This document shows, piece after piece, positions 16,181 through 34,662 of a DNA stretch of 42,758 nucleotides. A program made the position numbers and the translations under genes. Position 1 is the first letter of the stretch, and each line of letters begins with the position of its first letter. The notes under the pieces are model-generated. The model saw nothing but the letters and a program-made list of their open reading frames with translations, did not search any database and was not told the DNA's origin. The stretch is from Ramlibacter sp. (GTDB taxonomy: Bacteria > Pseudomonadota > Gammaproteobacteria > Burkholderiales > Burkholderiaceae_C). The stretch covers positions 1-42,758 of the forward strand of contig NZ_JARXAB010000055.1 of assembly GCF_029866045.1 (NCBI RefSeq), written 5' to 3'.

Positions 16181-16231
16181 TTGCGTACATCGCTGGCCGC
16201 AGGGGCTGGCGCTTGCCAAGGAGTCGTCTCC

Positions 16232-19633: not shown

Positions 19634-20362
19634 TCAGTGCTTGAGGATCTTCGATAGAAACTGCTGTGAGCGTTGCGAACGAGTGGTGGAAAAGAAGTCG
19701 TCCTTGGTGCAGTCTTCAACGATCTGGCCTTCGTCCATGAAGATCACCCGGTCGGCAACCTGCCGGGCAAAACCCATTTCGTGGGTGACGCACACCATGG
19801 TCATCCCTTCGCGCGCCAGGGTGACCATGACTTCGAGCACCTCCTGAATCATCTCGGGGTCGAGCGCAGAGGTCGGCTCGTCGAACAACATGGCGATCGG
19901 GTCCATCGCCAGGGCCCGGGCAATCGCGACGCGCTGCTGCTGCCCGCCTGAGAGTTGGGCGGGGTACTTGTGCGTATGGGCCTGGAGGCCGACCCTGTCC
20001 AATAGCTTCTCGCCTTTCGCCACAGCCTCCTCCTCCGAGCGCTTGAGCACCTTGCGCTGGGCCAGGGTGAGGTTCTGAAGAATCGTCAGATGGGGAAATA
20101 GCTCGAAGTTCTGGAACACCATGCCCACTTGTGCGCGCAGCAGTGACATGTCTGTGTCCTTGGCACCCAGCGTCTTGCCATTGATGCTGATCGAGCCGCT
20201 GTTTATCTTTTCAAGGCCATTGATGCACTTGATGAGAGTTGACTTACCCGATCCCGAGGGGCCGCACACCACCACCACCTCGCCTCTGGTGATGCTGGCC
20301 GACACGTTCTTCAGTGCCTGGAAGCTGCCGAAATTTTTGTTGACGTTGACGATTTCAATCAT
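19634..20362 (-). CDS. Polar amino-acid ABC transporter ATP-binding protein
   Basis: 242 residues, GlnQ/HisP/ArtP-like. Walker A is GPSGSGKST (34-42), followed by the Q-loop [13 protein letters not shown], signature LSGGQQQR, Walker [15 protein letters not shown] and the switch His in [10 protein letters not shown]. It hydrolyses ATP for uptake of an amino-acid-like solute. It sits 17 bp behind the 978-residue oxidoreductase and is therefore co-transcribed with it. Its binding protein (24395) and permease (25310) are on the opposite strand, across the divergent promoter. It has no other transporter partner in the window. Confidence 0.95.
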
Positions 20363-20379
20363 GCACGGATCCTCGAGTG

Positions 20380-23316
20380 TCAGAAGCGAGCCAGCGAGTA
20401 GGGGTGTGGGTCAAATGACGCCGAGCGCCTGAGGAGGAGGTCGACCGTCATACGGGCGACCACGGGCGACAGCGTGTAGCCGTTCGATGTGACGGCGTTG
20501 TAGAAGCCCGGCACACCCGGCGCCTCACCCAGGATGGGCGCACCGTCAATGTTGATGTTCATGGCGGCCCAAGTTCTCAGCACGCGCAGCCCCTGGACCT
20601 GTGGCACCACGCGCTGAGCTACCCAGAGGTTGCCCTCCACGCTTTGGCGCAGGGTGGTGTTGAACCGCCGCCGGTCATCGTAAGAGGCTGTCCAGCCACC
20701 GCCCACGATCAGTCCGCCCGTGGCGGCTTGCTTGAGGCTCAGGTGACGATCGGCGTGCGCCACCAATTGCTTGACCATGGCGGGCGCTGTTTCGGTGACG
20801 ATCATCTGCAAGGGCGCGCTGTGGACCGGCAGGTCCAGGCCGACCATCGCCCCGACTTCGCGGCTCCAGGGGCCAGCGGCGTTGATGACCGTGCCTGCCT
20901 CGATCACGCACCGCGAGGTCTTCACGCGCCAGCGCGTGCCGGCCCTCTCCAAGTGCTCGACGCTGGCACCGCGAATGAATCGAGCTCCCGCAGCCTGCGC
21001 CGCTTTCAAGACGCCGTACGTCGCTTTGAGCGGGTTGATCTTTCCTTCTTGCGGTGCGTACTCCGCGCCGAGCATTTGATGGGAAATCGCAGGCGCCAGT
21101 GATCTGAGTGTTGCGGCGTCGATGATCTCGTTTTCAATGCCGAATTGGCGCTCCAGGGCGGCCTTGGCTTGGAGGAACTTCATGCCTTCCGGGGTGTCGG
21201 CCACCATGAGCCCGCCAGTGGTCGAGATCTCAAAGTCGCCGCCGGTTTGCGCCTCCAGCTCTCTCCACAACTGGACCGAGGCCGGGCCGAGGGGCAGGGT
21301 CTGCGCGGCGGGTCCGCCGCCCGCTTCAGCCTTGGCGCCGAAATCGAACGAGAGCAACTGCACATGCAGGCTGCCGGCGTTGGCGCCCGAGGCCTGCATA
21401 TTGGCTTCGTCCCGCTCGACCACCAGCACGTCGCGGCCCTCGCGGGCCAGGTAATGGGCCAGGCAGGCCCCCATGACGCCTGCGCCGATCACCAATACCT
21501 CGGCCTGTTGCAGTGGCAGTGGCTGCGTCTCGGTCGGGCGCGCGATATTCGGTGTGATCGAGCGCTTGTGACCGCCCCATTCCGGCTTTTCAAACGCCAT
21601 GCATCCGGCGGGCACTGGCTTGGCAGGCAGGCGGGGCGCGAACAATTGCTCGGGCTCCCGGGGCTTGCCCTTGATCTCGTGCAGCAGCTTGTCGACGGTG
21701 CACGCGCAGTAGCGTCCCTGGCAGCGGCCCATGCCCAGACGGGTCATGCGCTTGAGCGGGCCCAGGCTGTCAAAGCCCTCCGCGATGGCCTCTCTGAGCT
21801 GGCCCAGGCTCACTTCCTCGCACCGGCAGGCCACGGTTGAATCGGGTAGGCCTTGCAGACGGACGGGGGGCGCCTGAAAAAGTGTCCAGAGGGCCTCCTG
21901 GAATTTCAGTGCCCGATCCAGTGCCGCGTCCGCATGGCGCATCACCGCCGGATCGACGCTTTTCCCCAGCGCGCTGGCGGCGGCCATGCCGGCCAATGTG
22001 CCTCGCGCCAGGGCCACCCGCGCACCACCCAGGGAACTGCCGTCGCCGATGGCAAAGACGTCTGGCAGGCTTGTTTGACCCGCCCGCGTGGTCTCGGTCT
22101 CGAGGTAGCCAATGTGGCGGTCGACAAGCCGGTGGGCGCACCCGAGGGCGCGGGCCAGCTCGGTGGAGGGAATGAAGCCGTAGCCCAGGCACAGGGTGTC
22201 CGCCTCGGTCGTGGTGGCACGTGTCAGGTCAGGCGCGCCAGCGCCGTTCAGCGGCGCGTAGACCACGCCTTGCAGGCGGCCGTCGCCCTGGGCCTGCACC
22301 ACGCCGTGGCCCCAGCGCACAGAAACGCCGTGCCGGCGCAGTTCGGCGACGTAGCCCAGGCCCTGCGCCATCAAATCAGGCGCGAAGCGCCAGGCCTTGA
22401 GCAGCGTGCGCCACATCGCGGGGGTGGGGGCAGGCGCTGACTCCAGCACCGCAGCGACCTGCACCCCCGCGCGGACCATTTCCACCGCAAGTTGCAGGTT
22501 CAACGGGCCATTGCCGGCGATCACCACTTTCTGGCCGGGCGAGACTTTGTAGGCCCGCACCAGCGTCTGGGCAGCGCCGGTGGTCATGACCCCGGGCAGC
22601 GTCCAGTTGGCGAACGGAACCGGCCGCTCGTAGGCGCCGGTAGCCAAAATCAACTGGCCAGGGCGAAACACGGTTTCTGCGCCGTCCACCATGGCGATCA
22701 CTTCCTGGGGCGTGTCCGCGCCCCAGACCGTCACCTCCTGGAGGATGCGCACGCCCGCATTCAGTGCAGCTTGGGTCAGTGCCAAGCCCTCGGCGAACTG
22801 CTTGTCGGCAGGCCGGGTGGCCGTGTGCGAGGGTGCCAGTGGTTTGAAATATTGCCCGCCGCTCTGTGGCCGCTCGTCGAGGACCACGACGCTGGCGCCC
22901 GCACGGGCTGCGCTGACCGCGGCGGCGAGGCCCGCTGGGCCAGCGCCTACCACCAGCACGTCCACCGCCTCCGCTCGCGGCTCGGCGCTGGTGGGTGCTG
23001 TGCACAGGGGGGCAAGTGGATCCTGCGCCGTTCCCGCGGGCATTTGAGACCGCACGGTTTGGCCCTCCCTCACCTTCTCCAGGCAGGCGCGAACGCCCGC
23101 CTGGCCGTCGACGGTCACCACGCAATCGAAACAAGCGCCCATTCCGCAATAGAGCCCGCGCGGTTCTTGCTTGCGGGTGTTGCGGAAGGTCTGGATTCCG
23201 TGCGCCTGGAGTGTGGCGGCGATCGTTTCCCCCGCAAGTGCGGACAAACGCCTGCCGTCAAAGGTGATTTCAACCGTGACGTCGGCGGGTCTGGCGCTGG
23301 CGTGTTGGATTCGCAT
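20380..23316 (-). CDS. Single-chain ferredoxin / NAD(P)-FAD / BFD / DAO oxidoreductase (fused HcnABC/OoxAB-like amino-acid or opine dehydrogenase)
   Basis: 978 residues in one uninterrupted frame. Domains in order are: a [2Fe-2S] ferredoxin-like domain (about 14-95; Cys57, 62, 65, 78); a pyridine-nucleotide-disulfide oxidoreductase-like FAD domain (about 117-450; GAGPAG 124-129, GNGPLNLQ near 268, [14 protein letters not shown] near 422); a BFD-type [2Fe-2S] domain (about 495-545; Cys497, 499, 532, 537); and a DAO domain (about 604-970; GAGVMG 611-616). Known relatives split this into three subunits: hydrogen cyanide synthase HcnABC, opine oxidases and D-hydroxyproline dehydrogenase. The expected reaction is FAD-linked oxidation of the C-N bond of an amino acid or opine, at the membrane or cytosol. 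It is first in a unit with the ABC ATPase, divergent from the DapA-like gene. Confidence 0.93.
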
Positions 23317-23359
23317 GGGGAGGGGCGACGCGAGGTCCTGAGGCTAATGAATACGACCG

Positions 23360-23388
23360 TTGCACGATGAGTATACTGCCGGTATATT
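23360..23388 (+). promoter_or_regulatory. Candidate promoter of the rightward catabolic operon
   Basis: TTGCAC (23360-23365) and TATATT (23383-23388) are 17 bp apart; the -10 matches 5 of 6 bases and the -35 only 3 of 6. It overlaps a palindrome (23372-23386), so repression there would block polymerase. The leftward promoter probably shares this spacer. Confidence 0.45.
23372..23386. promoter_or_regulatory. Palindrome TATAC-N5-GTATA in the divergent promoter, candidate operator
   Basis: Perfect 5-bp arms (23372-23376, 23382-23386) around tgccg lie in the 123-bp spacer between the oxidoreductase and the DapA-like gene. The operon contains its own GntR/FCD regulator (26015-26752), the obvious candidate to bind here (inference). 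Confidence 0.5.
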
Positions 23389-23439
23389 AACCTTGCGCAA
23401 AGCCAAAACGTTTTCAAAGAACCCCCTGCGAGTCCCCTC

Positions 23440-24360
23440 ATGAGTCCGACAAAAAACACAGGCAAGAACTGGCGCGGCACCTTCACCGTACTGGTGACCC
23501 CATTCACCGCAGACGGCAAGTCGGTTGACGTCCCCGCGCTGCGGCGCCTCGTCGATTGGCAAATTGAGCAAGGCATCCACGGACTGATCCCCCTGGGCAG
23601 CACGGGCGAGTTCCTCTCCATGACGATGCAGGAGCAAGAGGAGGTGATTGAGGTCTGTGTTCGCCAGGCGGCGGGCCGGGTGCCTGTGCTGATTGGCACG
23701 GGCGCCGAATGGACTGACGAGGCCGTGATGAAAGCCCGCTTGGCCGAAAGCCTGGGGGCCGACGGCGTGATGATCATCCCGCCGTACTACAGCACGCCCA
23801 CCCCCGACGAACTGTTCGCGCACTTCCGAAAGATCGGCGAGTCCGTGTCCATGCCGATCATGGTCTACAACAACCCGGCGACATCCAATGTCGACCTCAC
23901 GCCGGACATCGTCGCCCGGCTCGCGCAAATCGATAACGTTCGCTACATCAAGGAGTCCACCCTCGAAGTGACCCGTGTGCGGGACATCATCGAGCTGTGC
24001 GGCGACAAGATGACTGTCTTTGCCGGCATCCTAGGGTATGAGTCATTCTGGCTGGGTGCCCAGGGCTGGGTGGCGGTTTGCTCCAACTTCCTGCCCCGCG
24101 ACTCCGCGCGCCTGTTCGAGCTGGTCGCCGACCACAAGGACCAGCCGGCCGCCCTCGCGCTCTACAAACGCATCCTGCCCCTGGTCAAGATGGTCGGCGG
24201 ACACCGCTACGTGGCCGCCAGCAAGGTGGCCCTGGACTACATGGGACTGCCGGTCGGCACGCCCCGCCCGCCGCGCCTGCCATTGCCCGCCGCCGATACA
24301 GTTGAACTGAAAGCGATGCTCGATCGCCTGCAGCTCAAGGACTCGATTCCCGTTCACTGA
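23440..24360 (+). CDS. DapA-family (dihydrodipicolinate synthase/N-acetylneuraminate lyase) aldolase or deaminase
   Basis: 306 residues, a TIM-barrel class I lyase. The Schiff-base Lys171 lies in YIKES, Tyr143 in MVYNNPAT and the carboxylate-binding loop in GSTGE (53-57). All core catalytic residues are present. The family includes DHDPS, KDG aldolases and the hydroxyproline-pathway deaminase LhpC, which processes the imine product of a D-hydroxyproline dehydrogenase related to the neighbouring fused oxidoreductase. A lysine-biosynthesis role is unlikely in this context. It is first in the rightward operon; the binding protein starts 34 bp later. Confidence 0.93.
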   Translation: MSPTKNTGKNWRGTFTVLVTPFTADGKSVDVPALRRLVDWQIEQGIHGLIPLGSTGEFLSMTMQEQEEVIEVCVRQAAGRVPVLIGTGAEWTDEAVMKARLAESLGADGVMIIPPYYSTPTPDELFAHFRKIGESVSMPIMVYNNPATSNVDLTPDIVARLAQIDNVRYIKESTLEVTRVRDIIELCGDKMTVFAGILGYESFWLGAQGWVAVCSNFLPRDSARLFELVADHKDQPAALALYKRILPLVKMVGGHRYVAASKVALDYMGLPVGTPRPPRLPLPAADTVELKAMLDRLQLKDSIPVH

Positions 24361-24394
24361 TGGTCGTTTTTGCATTACTCAAAGGAGCCCCGCG

Positions 24395-25240
24395 ATGAAA
24401 AAGAGCGTTTTCGGATTCAACCTTCGTGCGTGCCTGGTCCTGGCTGGATCCATGGCGCTGACCGGCCTGGCCGCTGCGCAGACCTGCGCGCCCAAGGTGC
24501 CGGCCTCCGAGCTGGTCAAGCCAGGCACCCTGGTCATGTCTACCAACCCAACCCTGCCCCCGATGCAGTTCGTCGACAGTGCGGGTGTCCTCAAAGGCAT
24601 GCGTATCACGTTGGGTGACGAAATCGCCAAACGCCTTTGCCTGAAGCCCGAATACATCAAGATCGAGTTTTCAGCGATGGTTCCCGGCCTGCAGTCCGGG
24701 CGCTGGGATTTGATCAACACCGGCATCTTCTGGACCGAAGAGCGGGCCAAGATCATGCAGATGATTCAGTACGAAGCGCAAGCGGTGAGCATTTCGGTTG
24801 CCAAGGGCAATCCGCTCAAGATCTCCAAGCCTGAAGACCTCGCCGGTCGCACGGTGGGCGTCGAGCTTGGTGGTTTCGAAGAGCGCAAGCTCAAGGAACT
24901 CGATGACATGCTCAAGGCAAAGGGCCTCAAGGGCATCAACATCCGCACCTTCGACAACTTTGCCACCGCCTACCAGGCACTGCGCGCGGGCCAAACCGAG
25001 GCCAGTGTGACCATTGATTCCACCGGAGCGGAATATGCCAAGCGCGGAGAGTTCGACCGCGCCATCAGCGGCCTGTTCCCCACGCCTGTGGCCCTGGCAC
25101 TCAAGAGCACAGTCCTCGCCAATGCCGTCGTGGGCGTGTTCAACGACATGCAAAAAGACGGCACCTACGCCAAGTTGATGTCGGAGTACGGCCTGCTGGC
25201 CAACAAGGATCCGATCAAGGTCAACGGCCCGAGCAAGTAA
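24395..25240 (+). CDS. Amino-acid ABC transporter periplasmic binding protein (family 3)
   Basis: 281 residues with a signal peptide (about 1-28, AAAQTCAPK). The mature domain is SBP_bac_3-like: GTLVMSTNPTLPPMQF, VDSAGVLKGMRITLGDEIAKRL, and the hinge region GRTVGVELGGFEERKL. The expected ligand is an amino acid or a compound with an alpha-amino-acid-like head. Directly followed by a long hairpin and the permease gene. Its ATPase is encoded at 19634-20362 on the other strand. Confidence 0.93.
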   Translation: MKKSVFGFNLRACLVLAGSMALTGLAAAQTCAPKVPASELVKPGTLVMSTNPTLPPMQFVDSAGVLKGMRITLGDEIAKRLCLKPEYIKIEFSAMVPGLQSGRWDLINTGIFWTEERAKIMQMIQYEAQAVSISVAKGNPLKISKPEDLAGRTVGVELGGFEERKLKELDDMLKAKGLKGINIRTFDNFATAYQALRAGQTEASVTIDSTGAEYAKRGEFDRAISGLFPTPVALALKSTVLANAVVGVFNDMQKDGTYAKLMSEYGLLANKDPIKVNGPSK

Positions 25241-25247
25241 AGGCCAG

Positions 25248-25283
25248 CGGGCTACAGGCGGTCGAGCGATCGCCTGCAGCCCG
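25248..25283 (+). promoter_or_regulatory. Intercistronic hairpin between binding protein and permease
   Basis: The arms 25248-25260 and 25271-25283 pair with one mismatch (A25254/C25277), and the inner bases extend the stem to a GAGC loop. Such structures often protect the upstream mRNA and lower permease expression relative to the binding protein (established for similar ABC operons; inference here). Confidence 0.6.
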
Positions 25284-25309
25284 AAGTACAGCATCACCAG
25301 GGAGTCGGA

Positions 25310-26002
25310 ATGAAGGCTTGGGATTGGGGCGGGTTCTTCGAGTACCTGGTGAACCCCTATCTTCTGCAGGGGGCTTTTGTCACCCTGGGGTTGACGGTGG
25401 CTGCCATTGCTGGCGGACTGGTCGTGGGGTGCCTGCTTTCGCTCCTGCGCCTCTCAAGCCACAAATGGATGGTGGCCATCGCCAAAGGCTACATCTGGAT
25501 CTTCCGCGGCACGCCGCTGCTGGTTCAGTTGATCATCATCTACACCGGCTTGCCGCAGCTCGGAATCAAATTTTCGGTTCTGGAGTCGGCCCTGCTGGGC
25601 CTGGTTCTCAATGAAGCGGCCTACCTGGCGGAAATCATCCGCGGAGGCATTCTGGGTGTGTCGGCTGGCCAGAGCAGCGCCGCACGAGCGCTGGGCCTCA
25701 ATTCCGCGCAGACCATGATGTACGTGGTGTTGCCCCAGGCGATCCGGATCATCATTCCGGCGCTCGGCAACAGCATCAACGGTCTGCTCAAAACCACATC
25801 GATCACTTCCGTCATCTCCATGGAGGAACTGCTTCGCAAGACGCAAATCCTGATCCAGGAGAAATTCCTGGTCCTCGAGCTATTTGCCGTCGCGGCCCTC
25901 TACTATTTGCTCCTCACCTCCGTGTGGGACATCATTCAAAGGCGTATTGAGGCGCGCTATGGCCGCGCCTACAAATCAATTTCGGTCAACGAAGGACACT
26001 GA
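25310..26002 (+). CDS. Amino-acid ABC transporter permease (HisMQ family)
   Basis: 230 residues with about five membrane helices. The conserved EAA-like loop is ESALLGLVLNEAAYLAEIIRGGILGV followed by GQSSAARALGLNSAQTM and LPQAIRIIIPALGNS. It forms the translocation channel, probably as a homodimer, as only one permease is present. The start at 25310 follows GGGAG. Part of the rightward operon, 12 bp before the GntR gene. Confidence 0.95.
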   Translation: MKAWDWGGFFEYLVNPYLLQGAFVTLGLTVAAIAGGLVVGCLLSLLRLSSHKWMVAIAKGYIWIFRGTPLLVQLIIIYTGLPQLGIKFSVLESALLGLVLNEAAYLAEIIRGGILGVSAGQSSAARALGLNSAQTMMYVVLPQAIRIIIPALGNSINGLLKTTSITSVISMEELLRKTQILIQEKFLVLELFAVAALYYLLLTSVWDIIQRRIEARYGRAYKSISVNEGH

Positions 26003-26014
26003 AAGGCTAAAGCC

Positions 26015-26752
26015 ATGGGACTGGCGTTGCACGCGATCGATCTGGAGCACAAACCCCGGCCGGCGGGTAGTTTTCCGCAACGCCCGGAGGGCAGCCCCAA
26101 CCTGGCGGAGCAGGCGTATTCGCATCTGCGCACATTGATCCTGGGTCGACATATTGTGGGCGGAACGGGCCTCTCCGAAGGGCGACTCGCCACGGAGCTG
26201 AACGTCTCCCGAACCCCCATGCGCGAGGCCTTGGTGCGACTGGCGGGCGAGGGCCTGCTGGAGAAAACGGCTGAGGGAGTTTTCCGTGTGCGCTCGGTAT
26301 CCATTCGGGATTTCTTCGAGTGCATGGAGGTGAGAGAACTGCTGGAGTGTCATGCCATCGAGCGCGCAATTGCCATCGCGCCGGATGCCGAACTGAAATC
26401 CCTTCACGACGAGTTGAAGGCGCTGCCTGCGTCGTCACAGGACGACTTGGCGCATTGGCAATTTGACAACCGCTTCCACTCCTTCTTCGCCACCATGGCC
26501 AGAAACCAGGCCCTGGCGCGCGCCATCCAGCGCGAGCGGGTGGTGGCCCGGCTGTTTCGCATCTCCTCACCCTTCCACCGTCAGTCCGAAAGCGATGTGG
26601 AGCACATCGAGATCATGGACGCGGTCATGCAGCGCGACGTCAAGTCGGCCCAGGCCGCCATGCGCCGCCATCTGCAAAACCTGCAAAACGATGCGCGTCG
26701 CGAGATTGAAAGCCAGGCCTATCTGGCCCCACGCAACCAGGATCTGGGATGA
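26015..26752 (+). CDS. GntR-family transcriptional regulator (FadR/FCD subfamily)
   Basis: 245 residues. The winged helix-turn-helix (about 30-95) contains EGRLATELNVSRTPMREALVRLAGEGLL. A C-terminal FCD helical domain follows with likely metal/effector ligands Asp and His in FDNRFHSFF, His in VEHIEIMDAV and His in MRRHLQNL. Located inside the catabolic operon, it probably represses it until a pathway intermediate binds. The ATGA overlap with the hydantoinase gene shows translational coupling. The palindrome at 23372-23386 is a candidate target. Confidence 0.93.
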   Translation: MGLALHAIDLEHKPRPAGSFPQRPEGSPNLAEQAYSHLRTLILGRHIVGGTGLSEGRLATELNVSRTPMREALVRLAGEGLLEKTAEGVFRVRSVSIRDFFECMEVRELLECHAIERAIAIAPDAELKSLHDELKALPASSQDDLAHWQFDNRFHSFFATMARNQALARAIQRERVVARLFRISSPFHRQSESDVEHIEIMDAVMQRDVKSAQAAMRRHLQNLQNDARREIESQAYLAPRNQDLG

Positions 26753-28167
26753 CACGATTTGAAACCATCATCCGTGGCGGTACCGTCGTCACTGCCTCTG
26801 ACACGTTTGAAGCTGATGTAGGAATCAGCGAGGGCAAGATCCAGGCCATTGGTCGAAACTTGCCCGATGGCAACCAAGTGATTGACGCCAAGGGGCGGCT
26901 GGTTCTTCCCGGTGGTGTGGACGGACACTGCCACCTCGACCAGCCGACCGGCGACGGCTCCCAGTGCGCCGACGACTTCTACACCGGCACAGTCGCAGCG
27001 GCCTTTGGCGGAACGACCACGGTCATTCCCTTCGCCTGCCAGTTCCGCGGCATGCCAATGCAGGCCGCGGTGGATGACTATCACCGCCGAGCCCAAGGCA
27101 AGGCCGTCATCGACTACGCCTTCCACCTGATCGTGAGCGACCCCACCGAAGCGCTCCTGAAAGTGGATCTCCCGCGTTTGATCGGCGAGGGATACACCTC
27201 GTTCAAGATCTACATGACCTATGACGACATGAAGTTGAACGACAAGCAGGTCGTACAGCTTCTGTCGGTGGCTCGCCAGCATGGCGCCATGGCCATGATC
27301 CATGCCGAAAACTCGGACCTGATCGCCTGGCTCACCGATACATTGCTCGAGCAGGGCAAGACCGAGCCGCGATACCACGCGGCCGCAAGGCCGATGCTGG
27401 TCGAGCGCGAAGCCACGCACCGCGCCATCACCTTCGCCGAACTTGCGGATGTCCCCATCCTCATCGTTCATGTCTCAGGGCGTGAGGCGGTGGAGCAAAT
27501 TCATTGGGCGCAGGGCCGTGGCATGCGCATCTACGCCGAGACCTGTCCTCAATACATCACCCTCACCGAAGAAGACCTGGCCAAGCCCGGCTTCGAGGGC
27601 GCCAAGTGCATTTGCAGCCCACCACCGCGCAACAAGGCGAACCAGTCGGTCATCTGGGACGGCCTGGACAGCGGCCTGTTCCACATCTTTTCCTCGGACC
27701 ATGCCCCGTTTCGCTATCAGTCCGAGACAGGCAAGATGCTCAAGGGCGAGAGCACGCCGTTCAACTGGATCCCCAACGGTGTGCCAGGCATCGAGACCCG
27801 CCTTCCCATCCTCTTTTCCGAGGGCGTCAAGAAGGGTCGGATCAGTTTGAACAAATTTGTCGAACTGGTGTCGACCAATCCGGCCAAGATGTACGGTTTG
27901 CATCCTCGCAAGGGTGCTATCGCCGTCGGGAGCGATGCCGACGTGGTGGTGTTCGACCCTGACCTGCGTCGTGTCATCCGCAGTGACAAGCTTCACCACA
28001 ATGTCGACTACACGCCCTATGAGGGCATGGTGGTGGATGGCTGGCCTGTCACTGTCCTTTCCCGCGGCCAGGTCGTCATTGGCGATGGCAAGTTGATGGC
28101 CGCCGCCGGCCAGGGGCAGTTCCTTCCATGCGGCCGGCCGGAGATGGCCCGCCCCAAGGTGGCCTGA
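26749..28167 (+). CDS. Dihydropyrimidinase / D-hydantoinase family cyclic amidohydrolase
   Basis: 472 residues with a complete binuclear zinc site: His60 and His62 (DGHCHLD), the carboxylated Lys153 (SFKIYMTYDD), His185 (MIHAEN), His241 (LIVHVSG) and Asp317 (SSDHAPF). It opens cyclic amides such as dihydropyrimidines or 5-substituted hydantoins to N-carbamoyl amino acids. Length is as for bacterial D-hydantoinases. The start ATG overlaps the GntR stop. The DUF3830 and M20 genes follow. The actual ring substrate cannot be inferred. The transporter and the FAD enzyme suggest an amino-acid-derived ureide. Confidence 0.94.
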   Translation: MTRFETIIRGGTVVTASDTFEADVGISEGKIQAIGRNLPDGNQVIDAKGRLVLPGGVDGHCHLDQPTGDGSQCADDFYTGTVAAAFGGTTTVIPFACQFRGMPMQAAVDDYHRRAQGKAVIDYAFHLIVSDPTEALLKVDLPRLIGEGYTSFKIYMTYDDMKLNDKQVVQLLSVARQHGAMAMIHAENSDLIAWLTDTLLEQGKTEPRYHAAARPMLVEREATHRAITFAELADVPILIVHVSGREAVEQIHWAQGRGMRIYAETCPQYITLTEEDLAKPGFEGAKCICSPPPRNKANQSVIWDGLDSGLFHIFSSDHAPFRYQSETGKMLKGESTPFNWIPNGVPGIETRLPILFSEGVKKGRISLNKFVELVSTNPAKMYGLHPRKGAIAVGSDADVVVFDPDLRRVIRSDKLHHNVDYTPYEGMVVDGWPVTVLSRGQVVIGDGKLMAAAGQGQFLPCGRPEMARPKVA

Positions 28168-28229
28168 TCCTGCGCGCTCGCATCTGACCACAGCCCCTTC
28201 GGGCGCTTCTTTAGCCACACGTACCCCCC

Positions 28230-28661
28230 ATGAGCTCACAGCCGCACCTCCCACAACTCAAAATTACCGCAGGCTCTTTTGTCTTCGACGCCCGACTCGA
28301 AACCACGCTGGCGCCCGAGACCTGTGCCGCCATGCTCCCCTTGTTTCCTTATCGGCAAAAGCTGATTCACGTGCGCTGGAGTGGCGAGGGCGTCTGGATC
28401 CCGCTGGGCGACAAGCACTTCGATTTGAAGTGGGAAAACCACACCAGCTACCCGGCCCCAGGGCAGATGATTCTTTATCCCGGGGGTATCAGCGAGTGTG
28501 AAATCTTGCTGGCGTATGGCAGCGTGCACTTTGCCAGCAAGCTGGGCCAGCTCGCGGGAAACCACTTCATCACGCTCACCTCCAACCTCGACCAGCTCCC
28601 GGCTCTGGGTAAGAAGGTCTTGTGGGAAGGCGCGCAGGACCTGCTGATCGAGCTGGCCTGA
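28230..28661 (+). CDS. DUF3830 (cyclophilin-like fold) protein
   Basis: 143 residues with no signal peptide. Conserved features of DUF3830 are seen: ITAGSFVFDARLET, CAAMLPLFPY, HVRWSGEGVWIPLGD, APGQMILYPGGISECEILLAYG and VHFASKLGQLAGNHF. The fold is small and beta-rich, and the function is unknown. I recall the family beside hydantoinase and amino-acid catabolism genes. It starts 62 bp after the hydantoinase and 34 bp before the M20 gene. It could be a lyase, racemase or chaperone for a pathway enzyme. Confidence 0.85.
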   Translation: MSSQPHLPQLKITAGSFVFDARLETTLAPETCAAMLPLFPYRQKLIHVRWSGEGVWIPLGDKHFDLKWENHTSYPAPGQMILYPGGISECEILLAYGSVHFASKLGQLAGNHFITLTSNLDQLPALGKKVLWEGAQDLLIELA

Positions 28662-28695
28662 TTCCTTCAGAACACACGCACGAGAAGGCCGCCGA

Positions 28696-30024
28696 ATGAA
28701 TGAATTTGCCCCCCTTCTTGCGCAAACGGTTGCCAGCCGGCGCGAGAGCATCGTCGGTTTTTTGCGGGACTTGATCGCCGAGACCCGGCACGGCGAGGCC
28801 GCCGTGCTTCGCGCCATTGCAAAAGCGTCTGCAGACATGGGCTGCCGTGTTGAGTGGGTCGAATACGACCCGCAAGCCGTTCCCATGGTCGAAGAGTTTG
28901 CCGCCGAGGAAGCCATGACGCCGGGCCTGCGCCAGTGCGTCGTGGCGCGTATCGGAACGCCGGGTGCGGGCCGAAGCCTGCTATTTTTTGGCCACCCCGA
29001 CAGCGAGCCGCTTTCCCGGCTCGATGAATGGAGGCATGACCCCTTCAAAGGCGAGATCAGCGGCGACCGGATCCACGGCTGGGGCGTTGCCGACGACCTG
29101 GCTGGGGTGGCCATCTACACCCAGGCGATTGCGCTGCTCAAGGCTTGCGGCTTGCAGCCCAAGGGGGATGTCATCTTGGTCAGTACGCCCAGCAAGCGGC
29201 ATGCGCGAGGTGTCTCTGCGCTGTTGCACCAGGGGCTCACGGCTGACGCCGCCATCTATCTTCACCCTGCTGAATCAGGGTTGGGTATGAAGGAAATCAA
29301 GGCTTTCGCATCCGGGCAGCTGGAATTCAGGATCCGGGTCGAAGGCACCGCGCCGCCGACCTCCGAGCCCCTGCAGACCGCCTTTGCGCATCTGGCCGTC
29401 AATCCGGTGGCCAAGGCTTTCCAGGTGTTTGAAGCACTCATGCGCTTGGACGAACGGCGCGGCGCCCAGCTGCACCACCCCTTGCTGCATCAGGCGGTGG
29501 GCCGATCGACCAATCTCATGGTGTCCACGATGAACTGCGACCCGACCGACTCGCTCTCGCGCGTGCGCAGCGAGTGCTGGCTCGGAGGCGCCATCTCGTT
29601 TGCGCCGCCAGAGCCGATGGCCCAGGTGATGAGACAGGTGGAGGAGACTTTGGCGGCCTTGGGTCAGGACGATCCGTGGTTTCGCGAGCACCCGCCGCAA
29701 CTGCAATGGGAGTCGGGCGTCACCGGAGCCGAGGTCTCATCGGAGCACCCGCTGTATCGGGCGTTGGCCGGTGCCATTGAGCAGGTTACCGGCCATGTGC
29801 CTCAGGTCAACCCGATGCACACGTCCAGCGACATCCGCAACCCGATGGTCCAAAAGGCAATCCCGACGGTGGGTCTCGGCCCCCTGTGCGGCGATTTGTC
29901 GCAAAACGGACAAACAGACGAATGGGTGGATGTGGAGGACTACCTCTCGGCGGTCGCCGTCGTTGCCACCACGATCGTGGACTGGTGCGGCGTTGAGCCG
30001 TTCAAAGCGGGTCAAAAAGTCTAG
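28696..30024 (+). CDS. M20-family peptidase homologue with degenerate active site
   Basis: 442 residues aligned along the whole M20/carboxypeptidase G2 fold. The first metal motif is kept (GHPDSEP, His100, Asp102) as is the bridging Asp133 (GVADDLAG). The usual DEE motif holding the general base and a metal ligand reads PSK (165-167 in STPSKRHARG), the EPT motif reads HPAE, and the C-terminal metal His is absent (LSQNGQTDEWVD). Canonical metallo-peptidase or carbamoylase activity is therefore unlikely. It may be a rewired hydrolase or a non-catalytic partner. The coding sequence is intact with no frameshift. Last gene of the rightward operon. Confidence 0.88.
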   Translation: MNEFAPLLAQTVASRRESIVGFLRDLIAETRHGEAAVLRAIAKASADMGCRVEWVEYDPQAVPMVEEFAAEEAMTPGLRQCVVARIGTPGAGRSLLFFGHPDSEPLSRLDEWRHDPFKGEISGDRIHGWGVADDLAGVAIYTQAIALLKACGLQPKGDVILVSTPSKRHARGVSALLHQGLTADAAIYLHPAESGLGMKEIKAFASGQLEFRIRVEGTAPPTSEPLQTAFAHLAVNPVAKAFQVFEALMRLDERRGAQLHHPLLHQAVGRSTNLMVSTMNCDPTDSLSRVRSECWLGGAISFAPPEPMAQVMRQVEETLAALGQDDPWFREHPPQLQWESGVTGAEVSSEHPLYRALAGAIEQVTGHVPQVNPMHTSSDIRNPMVQKAIPTVGLGPLCGDLSQNGQTDEWVDVEDYLSAVAVVATTIVDWCGVEPFKAGQKV

Positions 30025-31405: not shown

Positions 31406-31960
31406 ATGCACACCGACGACATCCCCCGGGAGGAGCTCCACCTCCGTCAAATCCAGTTTCGTGGTTGGCGCCGGGGCGACGGCTTATTCGAGATCGAGGC
31501 CAGCCTCAGCGACCGCAAGCCGCACGAGTTTCGCCCGCCCTCCGGCGAGCGGGTGGTGCCCGCGGGCGACCCGATTCACGACCTGGGCCTGACCCTGGTT
31601 TTTGGCGCCGACATGGTGGTGCGCGAGGTGAGCACCTTCTTCGCCGCTTACCCCTACCGGGAGTGCAATGGGGGTGGCGACTCCCTGCAGGCCTTGGTGG
31701 GTTTGAAGATCGGCGCCGGCTGGGGCAGCGAGGTACGCAAACGCCTGCCCACGGGCGACACCTGCGCGCACCTGCGCGAGTTGCTGATCCCACTGGCGAG
31801 TGCTGCCACGATTGCCCTGGCCTCGGTGCGCAGCCCGGCGGCCCTCGACGCCCTGGGGCCGGACGGCATACCGCGCAAGATCGACACCTGCTACGCCTAC
31901 GGCGCCTCGCGTGAGCTGGTGCTTCAGCGCTGGCCCAGCTTCCACAAACCTGCGCCTTGA
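31406..31960 (+). CDS. DUF2889 domain protein
   Basis: 184 residues, cytosolic. The pattern LHLRQIQFRGWRRGDGLFEIEASLSDRKP, PIHDLGLTLVF, YRECNGGGDSLQALVGLKIGAGW and the ending CYAYGASRELVLQRWP matches DUF2889, whose function is unknown and which is common in betaproteobacterial catabolic regions. 69 bp after the acyl-CoA dehydrogenase, same strand. Confidence 0.88.
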   Translation: MHTDDIPREELHLRQIQFRGWRRGDGLFEIEASLSDRKPHEFRPPSGERVVPAGDPIHDLGLTLVFGADMVVREVSTFFAAYPYRECNGGGDSLQALVGLKIGAGWGSEVRKRLPTGDTCAHLRELLIPLASAATIALASVRSPAALDALGPDGIPRKIDTCYAYGASRELVLQRWPSFHKPAP

Positions 31961-31984
31961 GCGCCGCCCACGCACACAAGCGCA

Positions 31985-32022
31985 CGGTTTCGATCGTTGG
32001 GCTTTGCGCCGACGCGAAACCG
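31985..32022. repeat. 8-bp inverted repeat with 22-bp spacer
   Basis: cggtttcg (31985-31992) and cgaaaccg (32015-32022) are perfect complements. They lie between the DUF2889 gene and Bug receptor 3 and could be a terminator stem or a regulatory site. Confidence 0.4.
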
Positions 32023-32141
32023 GTCTGCAACGTCGAGGGAAAACCCGCTGGCAAAGGGCGTTTGCTCGACTTAACTTGCGTGTCGCTGGGGATTTTATTC
32101 GCGCTGCATCGGCCCGATGGCCCCTGAACCGGAAGAGACCC

Positions 32142-33113
32142 ATGCTCCCACTGAACCGAAGAACCGTGGCTGCTGCCGCTTTATTGGCCAGCCTTGCTCC
32201 CTTCGCGCTGGCGCAGTCGCCCGCTGCCTATCCGAACAAGCCTATTCGTATCCTGGTGCCTTTCGCGCCAGGGGGCAGCTTGGACCCCGTGGCACGCCTG
32301 ATCGGCGATCGCTTGACCCAGGCATGGGGCCAGCCCGTGATCGTGGACAACCGCGCCGGTGGCAACACCACCATCGCCACGCTGGCGGCTGCGAAGTCGC
32401 CGCCGGATGGCCACACCCTGCTGCTGACCGCCAGCACCCATGTCATCAACCCGCTGCTCATGGCGAACCTGCCTTATGACAGCGAGAAGGACTTCCTGCC
32501 AGTCGCCACCCTCATCAAGAGCGAGTTTGTTTTAGTCGTGCACCCCAGTGTTCCGACCACTACCGTGCAGGAGTTCATCGCGCTGGCCAAGTCCCGGCCG
32601 GACGGGATCGACTACGCCTCTTCCGGTCATGGCAACGCCAACCATATCGCGGCTGAATTGTTCAACCAGGTGGCCGGCACCCGGATGCGGCATGTGCCCT
32701 ACAAGGGCGGCGGGCAGGCGGTGCAGGACCTGCTCTCCGGCCAGGTCAAAGCCATCTTCTCGGTGCCTTTCACGGTGACCCCGCACATCAAGTCTGGCAA
32801 ATTGCGCGCGCTCGCACACACGGGTGCTGCGGGCCTGCCCGGAGTGCCCAGCTTCTCGCAGGCGGGGCTTCCGGCCTTCGACCTGCGCTCATGGCAGGCC
32901 ATCATGGTGCCCGCGGGCACGCCAAAACCCGTCATCGACAAGCTGGCGGCCGAACTCGGAAAGATCATGAACGACCCGACCACGCAGGAGAAGCTGGCCG
33001 CTACTGGCCAGGAAGTTTGGTTCCAGGGGCCTGAGGCCTTCAGCGCCATGATGAAAGCCGACACCAAGAAGTTCGGCGACATCATCCGCACCGCCAACAT
33101 CAAGATGGAGTGA
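32142..33113 (+). CDS. Bug/TctC-family receptor 3
   Basis: 323 residues from ATG 32142, with GGAAGAG upstream. The signal peptide starts LPLNRRTVAAAALLASLA (twin-Arg-like) and ends near ALAQS. The mature part has YPNKPIRILVPFAPGGSLDPVAR, PPDGHTLL, RHVPYKGGGQAVQDLLSGQ and VPAGTPKPVIDKL. It is a periplasmic carboxylate-type receptor with unknown ligand. Followed after 5 bp by a small cupin gene, so the two are probably functionally paired. Confidence 0.93.
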   Translation: MLPLNRRTVAAAALLASLAPFALAQSPAAYPNKPIRILVPFAPGGSLDPVARLIGDRLTQAWGQPVIVDNRAGGNTTIATLAAAKSPPDGHTLLLTASTHVINPLLMANLPYDSEKDFLPVATLIKSEFVLVVHPSVPTTTVQEFIALAKSRPDGIDYASSGHGNANHIAAELFNQVAGTRMRHVPYKGGGQAVQDLLSGQVKAIFSVPFTVTPHIKSGKLRALAHTGAAGLPGVPSFSQAGLPAFDLRSWQAIMVPAGTPKPVIDKLAAELGKIMNDPTTQEKLAATGQEVWFQGPEAFSAMMKADTKKFGDIIRTANIKME

Positions 33114-33678: not shown

Positions 33679-34662
33679 TTACTCGACCGAAATCTTCGCT
33701 GCGCGCACCACGGAGCCCCAGCGATCGAGTTCGGCCTGAACAAAGCGCCCCATCTCGGCAGGGTTGCTGCCAATGGGCACGATGTTGATCGCCTGCAGCC
33801 GGGCCACCATCTCGGGCTGCTTCATGATTTCGCTCACCCAGCCCGACACCTTGGCGACGATTGCCGGCGGGGTTTTGGGCGGCGCGACGACACCGTACCA
33901 GACGGTGGAGGCGAAGCCGGGAATCGTCTCCGACAGGGTCGGAACGTCGGGTAGCAGGGGTGCGCGCGTCTCACTGCCCACGGCCAGGGCGCGCAGGGCG
34001 CCGCTCTTGACGTGCTGGTAGGTGCTGCTCAACTCGGAGAATTGGAAGTCGGTCTGGCCCTGCAACTGCGCGGTAACGGCCGCGGCACTGGCTTTGTAGG
34101 GCACATGAACGATGTCGGTGCCGCTCAAAGTCTTGAGCAATTCGGAAGTGATGTGCGTGGTGGTCCCCGCACCGCCGCTGCCGTAATTGAGCTTCCCCGG
34201 GTTGGCCTTGGCGGCAGCGATGAGGTCGCGCACTGATTTGTACGGCGAGTCCGAGCGCACCAGGAGCACGTTCGGAATCAGGGCAGCCAGGGAGATATGG
34301 GTGAACTCTGAGGGCTCATAGGGCATCTTGGCCATCACCAGCTTGTTCAGTGCAATCGGGCCCGCTGCAGAAAACATGAAGGTATAGCCATCAGGAGGCG
34401 AGCGGAACACATGCTCTGCCCCCACATTACCCGACGCCCCTCCGGCACGGTTTTCAACGATCACGGGCTTGCCGGCCTTGACCCGGAGTTGCTCTGCGAT
34501 CAAGCGGGCGAGATTGTCGGTGGCGGCACCTGGCGCCACTGGAACCACGAGCCTGATGAGGCGGTTCGGATAGTCGTCCTGCGCGAGTGAGAGGGAAGGC
34601 AGGCCTAGCGCCGTCGCCGCAGAACCCACCAGGACAGAGCGGCGAGTGAGTGAGTGCTTCAT
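33679..34662 (-). CDS. Bug/TctC-family receptor 4
   Basis: 327 residues from ATG 34662, with AGGAG upstream. The leader MKHSLTRRSVLVGSAATALG has a twin-arginine-type motif and is cleaved near SLAQD. Family motifs are YPNRLIRLVVPVAPGAATDNLAR, SPPDGYTFM, HVPYKASAAAVTAQLQGQTD and VAPPKTPPAIVAKVS. The ligand is unknown. It is divergent from the SDR-PrpD pair (406-bp spacer) and may serve that pathway. Confidence 0.93.
   Translation of the reverse strand: MKHSLTRRSVLVGSAATALGLPSLSLAQDDYPNRLIRLVVPVAPGAATDNLARLIAEQLRVKAGKPVIVENRAGGASGNVGAEHVFRSPPDGYTFMFSAAGPIALNKLVMAKMPYEPSEFTHISLAALIPNVLLVRSDSPYKSVRDLIAAAKANPGKLNYGSGGAGTTTHITSELLKTLSGTDIVHVPYKASAAAVTAQLQGQTDFQFSELSSTYQHVKSGALRALAVGSETRAPLLPDVPTLSETIPGFASTVWYGVVAPPKTPPAIVAKVSGWVSEIMKQPEMVARLQAINIVPIGSNPAEMGRFVQAELDRWGSVVRAAKISVE

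Follow-up and report, generated by a model that had tools for sequence, protein, structure and literature searches.

Do the nine genes that flank one divergent promoter in a Ramlibacter contig form a single catabolic system, and if so, for what kind of compound? The question is raised by a stretch of 42,758 nucleotides (Ramlibacter sp., assembly GCF_029866045.1, contig NZ_JARXAB010000055.1; hereafter the window), in which positions 19634-30024 hold nine adjacent, unbroken open reading frames (ORFs) for an ABC importer (ATPase, permease and periplasmic binding protein), a fused flavin/iron-sulfur oxidoreductase, a DapA-type enzyme, a GntR-FCD regulator, a hydantoinase, a DUF3830 protein and an altered M20-family protein (Table 1). 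An earlier reading of the letters (the original prediction) had taken them for a possible undescribed system that would import, open, oxidize and cleave or deaminate a cyclic ureide or related amino acid derivative. Pfam and NCBIfam profiles confirmed the family that it had named for each of the nine genes, and the 123-bp gap between the two arms (23317-23439) bore out its single divergent promoter. We conclude that the locus is best read as an amino-acid-derivative catabolic regulon of known families plus poorly understood ones; more specifically, and with slightly less than even confidence, we propose that its genes would together break down an amino-acid-like compound bearing a cyclic amide, ureide or lactone, as an independent unit under local regulation.

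Recurrence of the gene set in other genomes

We compared 85 loci, namely the window, five plasmid loci and 79 distinct loci from a scan of genome contigs with a five-sequence alignment (the best 80 of 579 confirmed oxidoreductase relatives). Fifty-nine of the 85 had at least 7 kb on either side of the oxidoreductase gene (hereafter full loci), a sample skewed toward close relatives since it comes mostly from the best 80 of 579. We found that these 59 loci also carried DapA (55), the binding protein (51), the permease (51), GntR (42), the ATPase (39), the hydantoinase (29), DUF3830 (20), the altered M20 (19), a second M20 type referred to here as M20b (12), a phosphotriesterase (PTE)-family hydrolase (10) or an aspartate-dehydrogenase-like protein (5). 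The genes cluster far more often than chance would give: DUF3830 was found in 8/200 genomes of the order and a close hydantoinase (E≤1e-100) in 20/200, and four of the eight genomes with DUF3830, among them the window's, have such a hydantoinase on the same contig at most 15 kb away. The near-constant parts are only the importer, the oxidoreductase and DapA; the hydrolases differ among lineages, which would suit a common amino acid core with different caps.

A search of plasmids with the oxidoreductase returned relatives of 45-67% identity across the whole or nearly the whole query in Azospirillum, Variovorax, Aureimonas, Rhizobium and Agrobacterium. The loci of Azospirillum brasilense (L032), Variovorax (L033), Aureimonas (L034) and Agrobacterium vitis (L035) keep ATPase, oxidoreductase, DapA, binding protein, permease, hydantoinase and GntR together, with DUF3830 in three of the four and the altered M20 in none; a Rhizobium tropici plasmid (L037) carries all core genes and DUF3830, with no hydantoinase match. 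The two arms face away from each other in Azospirillum and Variovorax; in Aureimonas and Agrobacterium they share one direction. The conserved-neighbourhood search that the original prediction had proposed thus found the genes together in alpha-, beta- and gammaproteobacteria, across several orders and with the gene order rearranged, and the absence of co-occurrence that it had named as the adverse outcome was not seen. Within the family the fused oxidoreductase is patchy, being present in 4/299 genomes at E≤1e-200, including the window's; at this threshold it was not found in any of the three other genomes listed for the genus. Among the matches listed in a literature search whose reach excluded most subscription journals, there was no publication on this gene set.

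Two further gene associations were observed in the sample. A second system, comprising another oxidoreductase, a HAGE-type DapA-family protein and a further amino-acid ABC importer, stands beside the first at L094, L096, L100, L101, L106, L107, L110, L051 and L067 (Acetobacteraceae, one Pelagibacteraceae contig and others), and in the Acetobacteraceae loci L094, L096, L101, L106 and L107 GTATAC is found ahead of its binding protein gene or where that gene starts. The aspartate-dehydrogenase-like gene was present in 7/85 loci (for example, L087:3709-4833, L089:3585-4400 and L071:13408-14331), every one of them with the altered M20.

A shared candidate operator in the divergent promoter

The palindrome GTATAC was present in 20 of the 40 divergent oxidoreductase/DapA gaps (shuffled mean 0.84, maximum 4, 300 shuffles), and a GntR protein of at least 36% identity was encoded in 19/20 divergent loci with GTATAC vs. 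1/20 without it (Fisher p=5.8e-9), statistics in which related loci share ancestry and the trials are not independent. Across the 85 loci, and subject to the same shared ancestry, we counted 77 sites in the upstream regions of cluster genes (70,024 bp) vs. 42 in 1,608,176 bp elsewhere, a 42-fold enrichment spread over 39 loci, and eleven control palindromes gave 0.3-4.4-fold. In other gene orders GTATAC also precedes the genes for the altered M20, M20b, the PTE-family hydrolase and a second binding protein. The exact double site GTATAC-N5-GTATAC occurs once each in five of eight genomes searched, always within the cluster, and the sole match to GTATACN5GTATAY without mismatch in the window's genome is 23371-23387. 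Since the two arms share this conserved operator, they are probably controlled by a single local regulator, and the GntR-FCD protein is the likely reader of the site.

The fused oxidoreductase and the DapA-type enzyme

The fused oxidoreductase contains Fer2_4, Pyr_redox_2, Fer2_BFD, SO_alpha_A3 (BFD/SO_alpha_A3) and DAO domains. It has two flavin adenine dinucleotide (FAD) motifs, a CX4CX2CX11-12C cluster and the RXW flavin mononucleotide (FMN) motif, and the eight iron-sulfur Cys, R914-x-W916 and five Gly of the FAD motifs are invariant in 79/79 full-length rows. Its closest solved relatives are both chains of 1Y56. In the DAO-half tree, 26 fused rows and three unfused plasmid rows form one clade (98/99), separate from both groups of proline-racemase-linked dehydrogenases (three references each, on long branches).

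We considered whether the cluster might instead break down opine-like N-substituted amino acids, with the fused enzyme as a flavin opine dehydrogenase that splits a secondary amine to an amino acid and a 2-keto acid, the hydantoinase or PTE-family hydrolase opening an opine lactam or lactone, and DapA handling the keto acid. The available part of PMC4575208 gives, as motifs of flavin opine, D-hydroxyproline and L-proline dehydrogenases, a first cluster spacing and an RXW motif with which our enzyme agrees, and a second cluster, CXCX15-20CX4C, whose Cys are complete here but spaced as CXCX32CX4C. Most cofactor motifs of these dehydrogenases are therefore present, and 1Y56 as best solved relative, an importer of amino-acid type and the clusters on the Agrobacterium vitis and Rhizobium tropici plasmids also speak for an opine; the second-cluster (BFD) spacing of 32 rather than 15-20 speaks against it. 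So does the absence of opine synthase, ornithine cyclodeaminase and arginase families among the nine genes, family content having been taken, here and below, from the best 25 matches per protein. To our knowledge, known opine routes need no DapA-type aldolase, and we know of no hydantoinase that acts as an opine lactamase. On balance, we consider an opine rather unlikely.

The DapA-type enzyme carries the motifs GSTGE, YNNPAT and KES. Ser54, Gly56, Glu57, Tyr143 and Lys171 are present in 70/70 rows and Thr55 in 66/70, and the column with Arg in the Pseudomonas aeruginosa DapA row holds Thr here and in 64/70; the N-acetylneuraminate lyase row of the alignment carries the same Ser-Thr letters. 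We take this Ser-Thr pair to be the site that holds a pyruvate carboxylate, which makes aldol cleavage the likeliest predicted reaction. In the DapA tree, which used 28 of the 70 cluster rows, these form their own clade (96/98), and six DHDPS rows that lie beside proline racemase genes, counted as Pyr4H2C deaminases by gene context only, form a separate one (100/99) with SLGE, TVGE or TCGE vs. STGE here.

These trees bear directly on a 4-hydroxyproline variant, in which the fused enzyme would be a D-hydroxyproline dehydrogenase, DapA a Pyr4H2C deaminase, and the hydrolases would free a blocked hydroxyproline. The layout favours it, since the known one combines a DAO-family dehydrogenase, a DHDPS-family enzyme and transporters (PMC4113996, in the part available) and the hyp regulon includes a GntR regulator (PMC5343134, likewise in part). 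Here, however, DapA falls outside the racemase-linked clade and has STGE in place of SLGE, TVGE or TCGE, and the DAO half falls outside both racemase-linked groups. No proline racemase-family epimerase was found in the genome (93% complete): its lone proline-racemase match (30 bits over 78 positions, cut-off 27) is a PhzF protein (PF02567 221 bits, TIGR00654 214 bits), and we rejected it as a candidate. The alpha-ketoglutarate semialdehyde/aldehyde dehydrogenase family is also missing among the nine genes. The epimerase search and the two trees led us to reject membership of the 4-hydroxyproline pathway, and even the variant appears very unlikely.

Hydrolases and accessory proteins

In the hydantoinase, H60, H62, K153, H185, H241 and D317 are present in 37/37 rows, residues that we take to be the metal site (HxH, carboxylated Lys, two His and Asp), and the second-best match within the genome has just 24% identity. 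Other loci have a PTE-family hydrolase (15/85 loci).

We inspected eight plasmid neighbourhoods of DUF3830 outside the fused-oxidoreductase clusters and found, on one plasmid, allantoinase, ring-opening amidohydrolase and acetamidase/formamidase genes; on one, a dihydroorotase-family gene; on one, (S)-ureidoglycine aminohydrolase and a Zn-dependent hydrolase; in Halorubrum, an amidohydrolase and a Zn-dependent hydrolase; in Haladaptatus, hydantoinase A/B-type (HyuA/HyuB-type) genes at most 7 kb away; in Rhizobium johnstonii, a racemase and two amidohydrolases; and in Paraburkholderia aromaticivorans (L124:1-14417), hydA, a HAGE-type DapA (DHDPS gene) and an unfused three-gene oxidoreductase. 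No cyclic amide or ureide hydrolase genes were seen in the Thalassospira neighbourhood. This company is the best support for a ureide, which it suggests by analogy. The Paraburkholderia set adjoins acetamidase/formamidase and polysaccharide-deacetylase genes. The DUF3830 profile matches 3kop, an uncharacterized solved protein that offers no functional hint (E=1.1e-5); the structure model was poor (mean pLDDT 59, residues 50-111 below 50) and was not used; and a literature search, with most subscription journals outside its reach, gave no paper on DUF3830.

The M20 protein, which the original prediction had called degenerate, does have altered catalytic positions: compared with 3pfo it keeps His100, Asp102 and Asp133, its Glu pair is replaced by PSK, and the C-terminal His is gone (residues that we presume to represent the catalytic Glu and the five metal ligands of the family). 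Yet it is a conserved subfamily rather than a relic. In 24 sequences (23 from clusters and one paralogue on contig C125), PSK replaces the Glu pair in 24/24, the His is lost in 23/24 (L071 has it), and the motifs PSK..RG, HPAESG and HT.SDIR are common to all, kept at identities down to 45%, which argues that this is not a decaying gene. The paralogue (L036:962-2278, 53% identical) lies right after a TctC-like receptor ORF on C125, a 9-kb contig of the window's genome in which the other cluster genes had no match.

M20b, an M20/ArgE-DapE-family protein with M20_dimer (L045:12906-14165, L106:13718-15061, L067:8760-9929, L110:14189-15325), occurs in 17/85 loci and keeps the Glu pair and a C-terminal H..(D/N)E; of four M20b proteins scored with TIGR01910 (ArgE/DapE), three are above its cut-off, and L045 falls short (201.5 vs. 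217.6). The sequences suggest that the altered M20 and M20b may be enzymes with a changed site or binding subunits. DUF3830 and M20b were never found together in the 59 full loci (0/20 vs. 12/39, p=0.005; p=0.016, 0.07, 0.27 and 0.54 with related loci merged at 80, 70, 65 and 60% identity), as if DUF3830 and the altered M20 took the place of M20b. The PTE-family hydrolase pairs with the altered M20 (9/10 vs. 10/49; p=0.0005, 0.012, 0.03 and 0.29 with related loci merged at 80, 70, 65 and 60% identity).

Other readings were considered. The substrate could be the lactone of a gamma-hydroxy amino acid, free or N-acylated and similar to a homoserine lactone, opened by the PTE-family hydrolase or hydantoinase as lactonase, converted by the flavoenzyme to 4-hydroxy-2-oxobutyrate and split by DapA. 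This route, wholly inferred, would suit the frequency of the PTE family and the aldolase-type signature of DapA; the DUF3830 neighbourhoods favour amides and ureides over lactones, and the formaldehyde that it would yield is an unusual product, so we regard it as improbable, with a low chance of being correct. Alternatively, the hydantoinase could belong to ordinary hydantoin or reductive pyrimidine degradation and merely adjoin an unrelated amino-acid oxidase operon, as a genuine D-hydantoinase with its metal site kept and no close second in the genome might suggest. The nine genes, however, include no N-carbamoyl amino acid hydrolase (carbamoylase), hydantoin racemase, dihydropyrimidine dehydrogenase or beta-ureidopropionase, partners whose absence there led us to reject membership of the hyu and reductive pyrimidine pathways, and the hydantoinase accompanies the oxidoreductase in 29/59 loci; we see only a slim chance for this reading. 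That two independent operons became divergent neighbours by accident is scarcely credible and was rejected, given DapA in 55/59 and the binding protein in 51/59 loci, several gene orders and a shared operator.

A proposed route and the evidence against it

Arg117 of the binding protein, aligned with the Arg of the binders AncQR and AncCDT-1, is present in 59/59 rows; we take this position and the Asp of such binders to hold the carboxylate and the amine, respectively, and the sequence fits an amino-acid-like ligand. Returning to an amino-acid-like compound with a cyclic amide, ureide or lactone, we infer the following order of steps. The binding protein, permease and ATPase would import the compound; the hydantoinase (a PTE-family hydrolase in other loci) would open its ring; and DUF3830 and the altered M20 (M20b in other loci) might act on the opened product by hydrolysis, bind it or present it. 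The flavoenzyme would then oxidize a C-N bond to an imino or keto acid and pass the electrons via its flavins and [2Fe-2S] clusters to the respiratory chain, and the DapA-type enzyme would cleave the resulting 2-keto acid, probably a 4-hydroxy one, to pyruvate and an aldehyde. GntR-FCD is predicted to switch both arms through GTATAC-N5-GTATAC.

Several observations weigh against this proposal. Nine of the 59 full loci have neither hydantoinase, PTE, M20, M20b nor DUF3830, and 8 of the 10 full loci with PTE have no hydantoinase; given such variation among ring hydrolases, the core feature need not be a ring. Three relatives of ~40% identity have different surroundings, in which neither a hydantoinase nor DUF3830 is annotated, though a DHDPS-family gene is present in the stretch around two of them. 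M20b lacks the second-motif Asp and fourth-motif Glu in 17/17, a change opposite to that of the window's M20; as neither type is canonical, simple deacylation is doubtful. Ile207 of the binding protein stands where AncQR and AncCDT-1 have their Asp, and it is the neighbouring Asp208 that is invariant (59/59), which leaves binding of a free alpha-amine unsure; the same doubt would suit a ring or substituent on the ligand's alpha nitrogen. As for the operator, GTATAC is missing from 20 of the 40 divergent gaps, the exact double site is absent from three of the eight genomes searched, the backward control pattern gave a match in one of these genomes, and with one mismatch allowed two places elsewhere in the window's genome match, no more than with the backward control. 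The evidence would fit a lactam, imide or lactone as well as a cyclic ureide.

Of the sequence of import, ring opening, oxidation and cleavage first proposed for a cyclic ureide, then, the conserved gene set stands; the ring-opening enzyme varies among loci, and the ureide is only suggested. A bolder claim, that ring-modified amino acids are handled here by a new modular pathway with DUF3830 and the two oppositely altered M20 subfamilies as real components, strikes us as doubtful. Among candidate substrates that we considered, no result supports ectoine, an arginine glycation product or a tRNA-derived amino acid.

Even so, what had been unconnected annotated genes becomes one testable pathway with its own operator, in which DUF3830 and the unusual M20 subfamilies gain a biological context, and carrier genera (Variovorax, Azospirillum brasilense, Rhizobium) can be named. 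There is also a risk of mislabelling, with dapA annotated as lysine biosynthesis and hydA/dihydropyrimidinase as pyrimidine degradation, as in the Azospirillum record.

Organization of the locus

The left arm runs from the oxidoreductase to the ATPase, and the right arm from DapA through binding protein, permease, GntR-FCD, hydantoinase and DUF3830 to M20 (Table 1). The best NCBIfam match of the ATPase, GlnQ, reaches 312 bits, below its cut-off of 379. Acyl-CoA dehydrogenase, DUF2889, TctC receptor and MotB-like genes flank the cluster and were not counted as its members; the acyl-CoA dehydrogenase family was found in 5/85 loci. TctC (Bug) solute receptors lie at 31800-33113 and 33679-34662, and window ORFs at 16181, 17729, 39472 and 41222 group with them by similarity.

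Table 1. Features of the nine-gene cluster and its promoter, in window coordinates.
Feature	Coordinates	Strand	Basis
ATPase of an ABC importer for polar amino acids by type; last gene of the left arm	19634..20362	-	PF00005 8.9e-37
Fused flavin/iron-sulfur amine dehydrogenase, gamma+alpha+beta in a single chain, 978 aa	20380..23316	-	Domain set
Divergent promoter region, 123 bp between start codons	23317..23439	.	Gap between arms
Operator candidate GTATAC-N5-GTATAT	23371..23387	+	Palindrome conservation
DapA-superfamily (DHDPS-family) Schiff-base lyase, aldolase-like signature	23440..24360	+	PF00701
Periplasmic binding protein, amino-acid type	24395..25240	+	SBP_bac_3
ABC importer permease	25310..26002	+	PF00528; TIGR01726 above cut-off
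GntR-FCD regulator	26015..26752	+	PF00392, PF07729
D-hydantoinase/dihydropyrimidinase-type cyclic amidohydrolase	26749..28167	+	PRK13404 800 bits (cut-off 647), TIGR02033 573 (393)
DUF3830 protein, putative accessory	28230..28661	+	PF12903 2.2e-29
Non-canonical M20 subfamily protein	28696..30024	+	M20 family; without catalytic Glu pair and C-terminal metal His

Comparison with known systems

The 4-hydroxyproline cluster (LhpA/B/E/F/C/G, hyp) shares with ours a transporter, a flavoenzyme with DAO and BFD/Fer2 domains, a DHDPS-family enzyme and a GntR regulator; it differs in its epimerase, of which none was found in the genome here, and in its aldehyde dehydrogenase, of which none was found among the nine genes, and the present cluster has DapA and DAO in other clades, fused flavoenzyme subunits and an additional hydantoinase, DUF3830 and M20. 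Flavin opine dehydrogenases (OdhABC, Nox/Oox) have the same domain set, the two FAD Gly motifs, CX4CX2CX12C, CXC...CX4C and RXW, whereas the cluster enzyme is a single 978-aa chain, has its BFD Cys pairs further apart and is coupled with DapA as well as a cyclic amidohydrolase. The M20 (ArgE/DapE) deacylases resemble the altered M20 in family and in three residues, the first motif's His and Asp and the second motif's Asp; in contrast, the altered M20 has no Glu pair and (in 23/24) no C-terminal His, and has shared motifs of its own. Like hyu hydantoin utilization clusters, the locus encodes a D-hydantoinase with its metal site kept; unlike them, it has no carbamoylase or racemase among its nine genes, its M20 is without the catalytic residues, and an oxidoreductase and an aldolase-like enzyme would come after the hydantoinase step. 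The original prediction had held that no textbook hydantoin, hydroxyproline or pyrimidine pathway fits, and several tested features that define these systems were indeed lacking here, within the searches given above; we therefore do not file the cluster under any of the three. Hydroxyproline and opine routes resemble it in the dehydrogenase, and hydantoin utilization resembles it in the first hydrolase.

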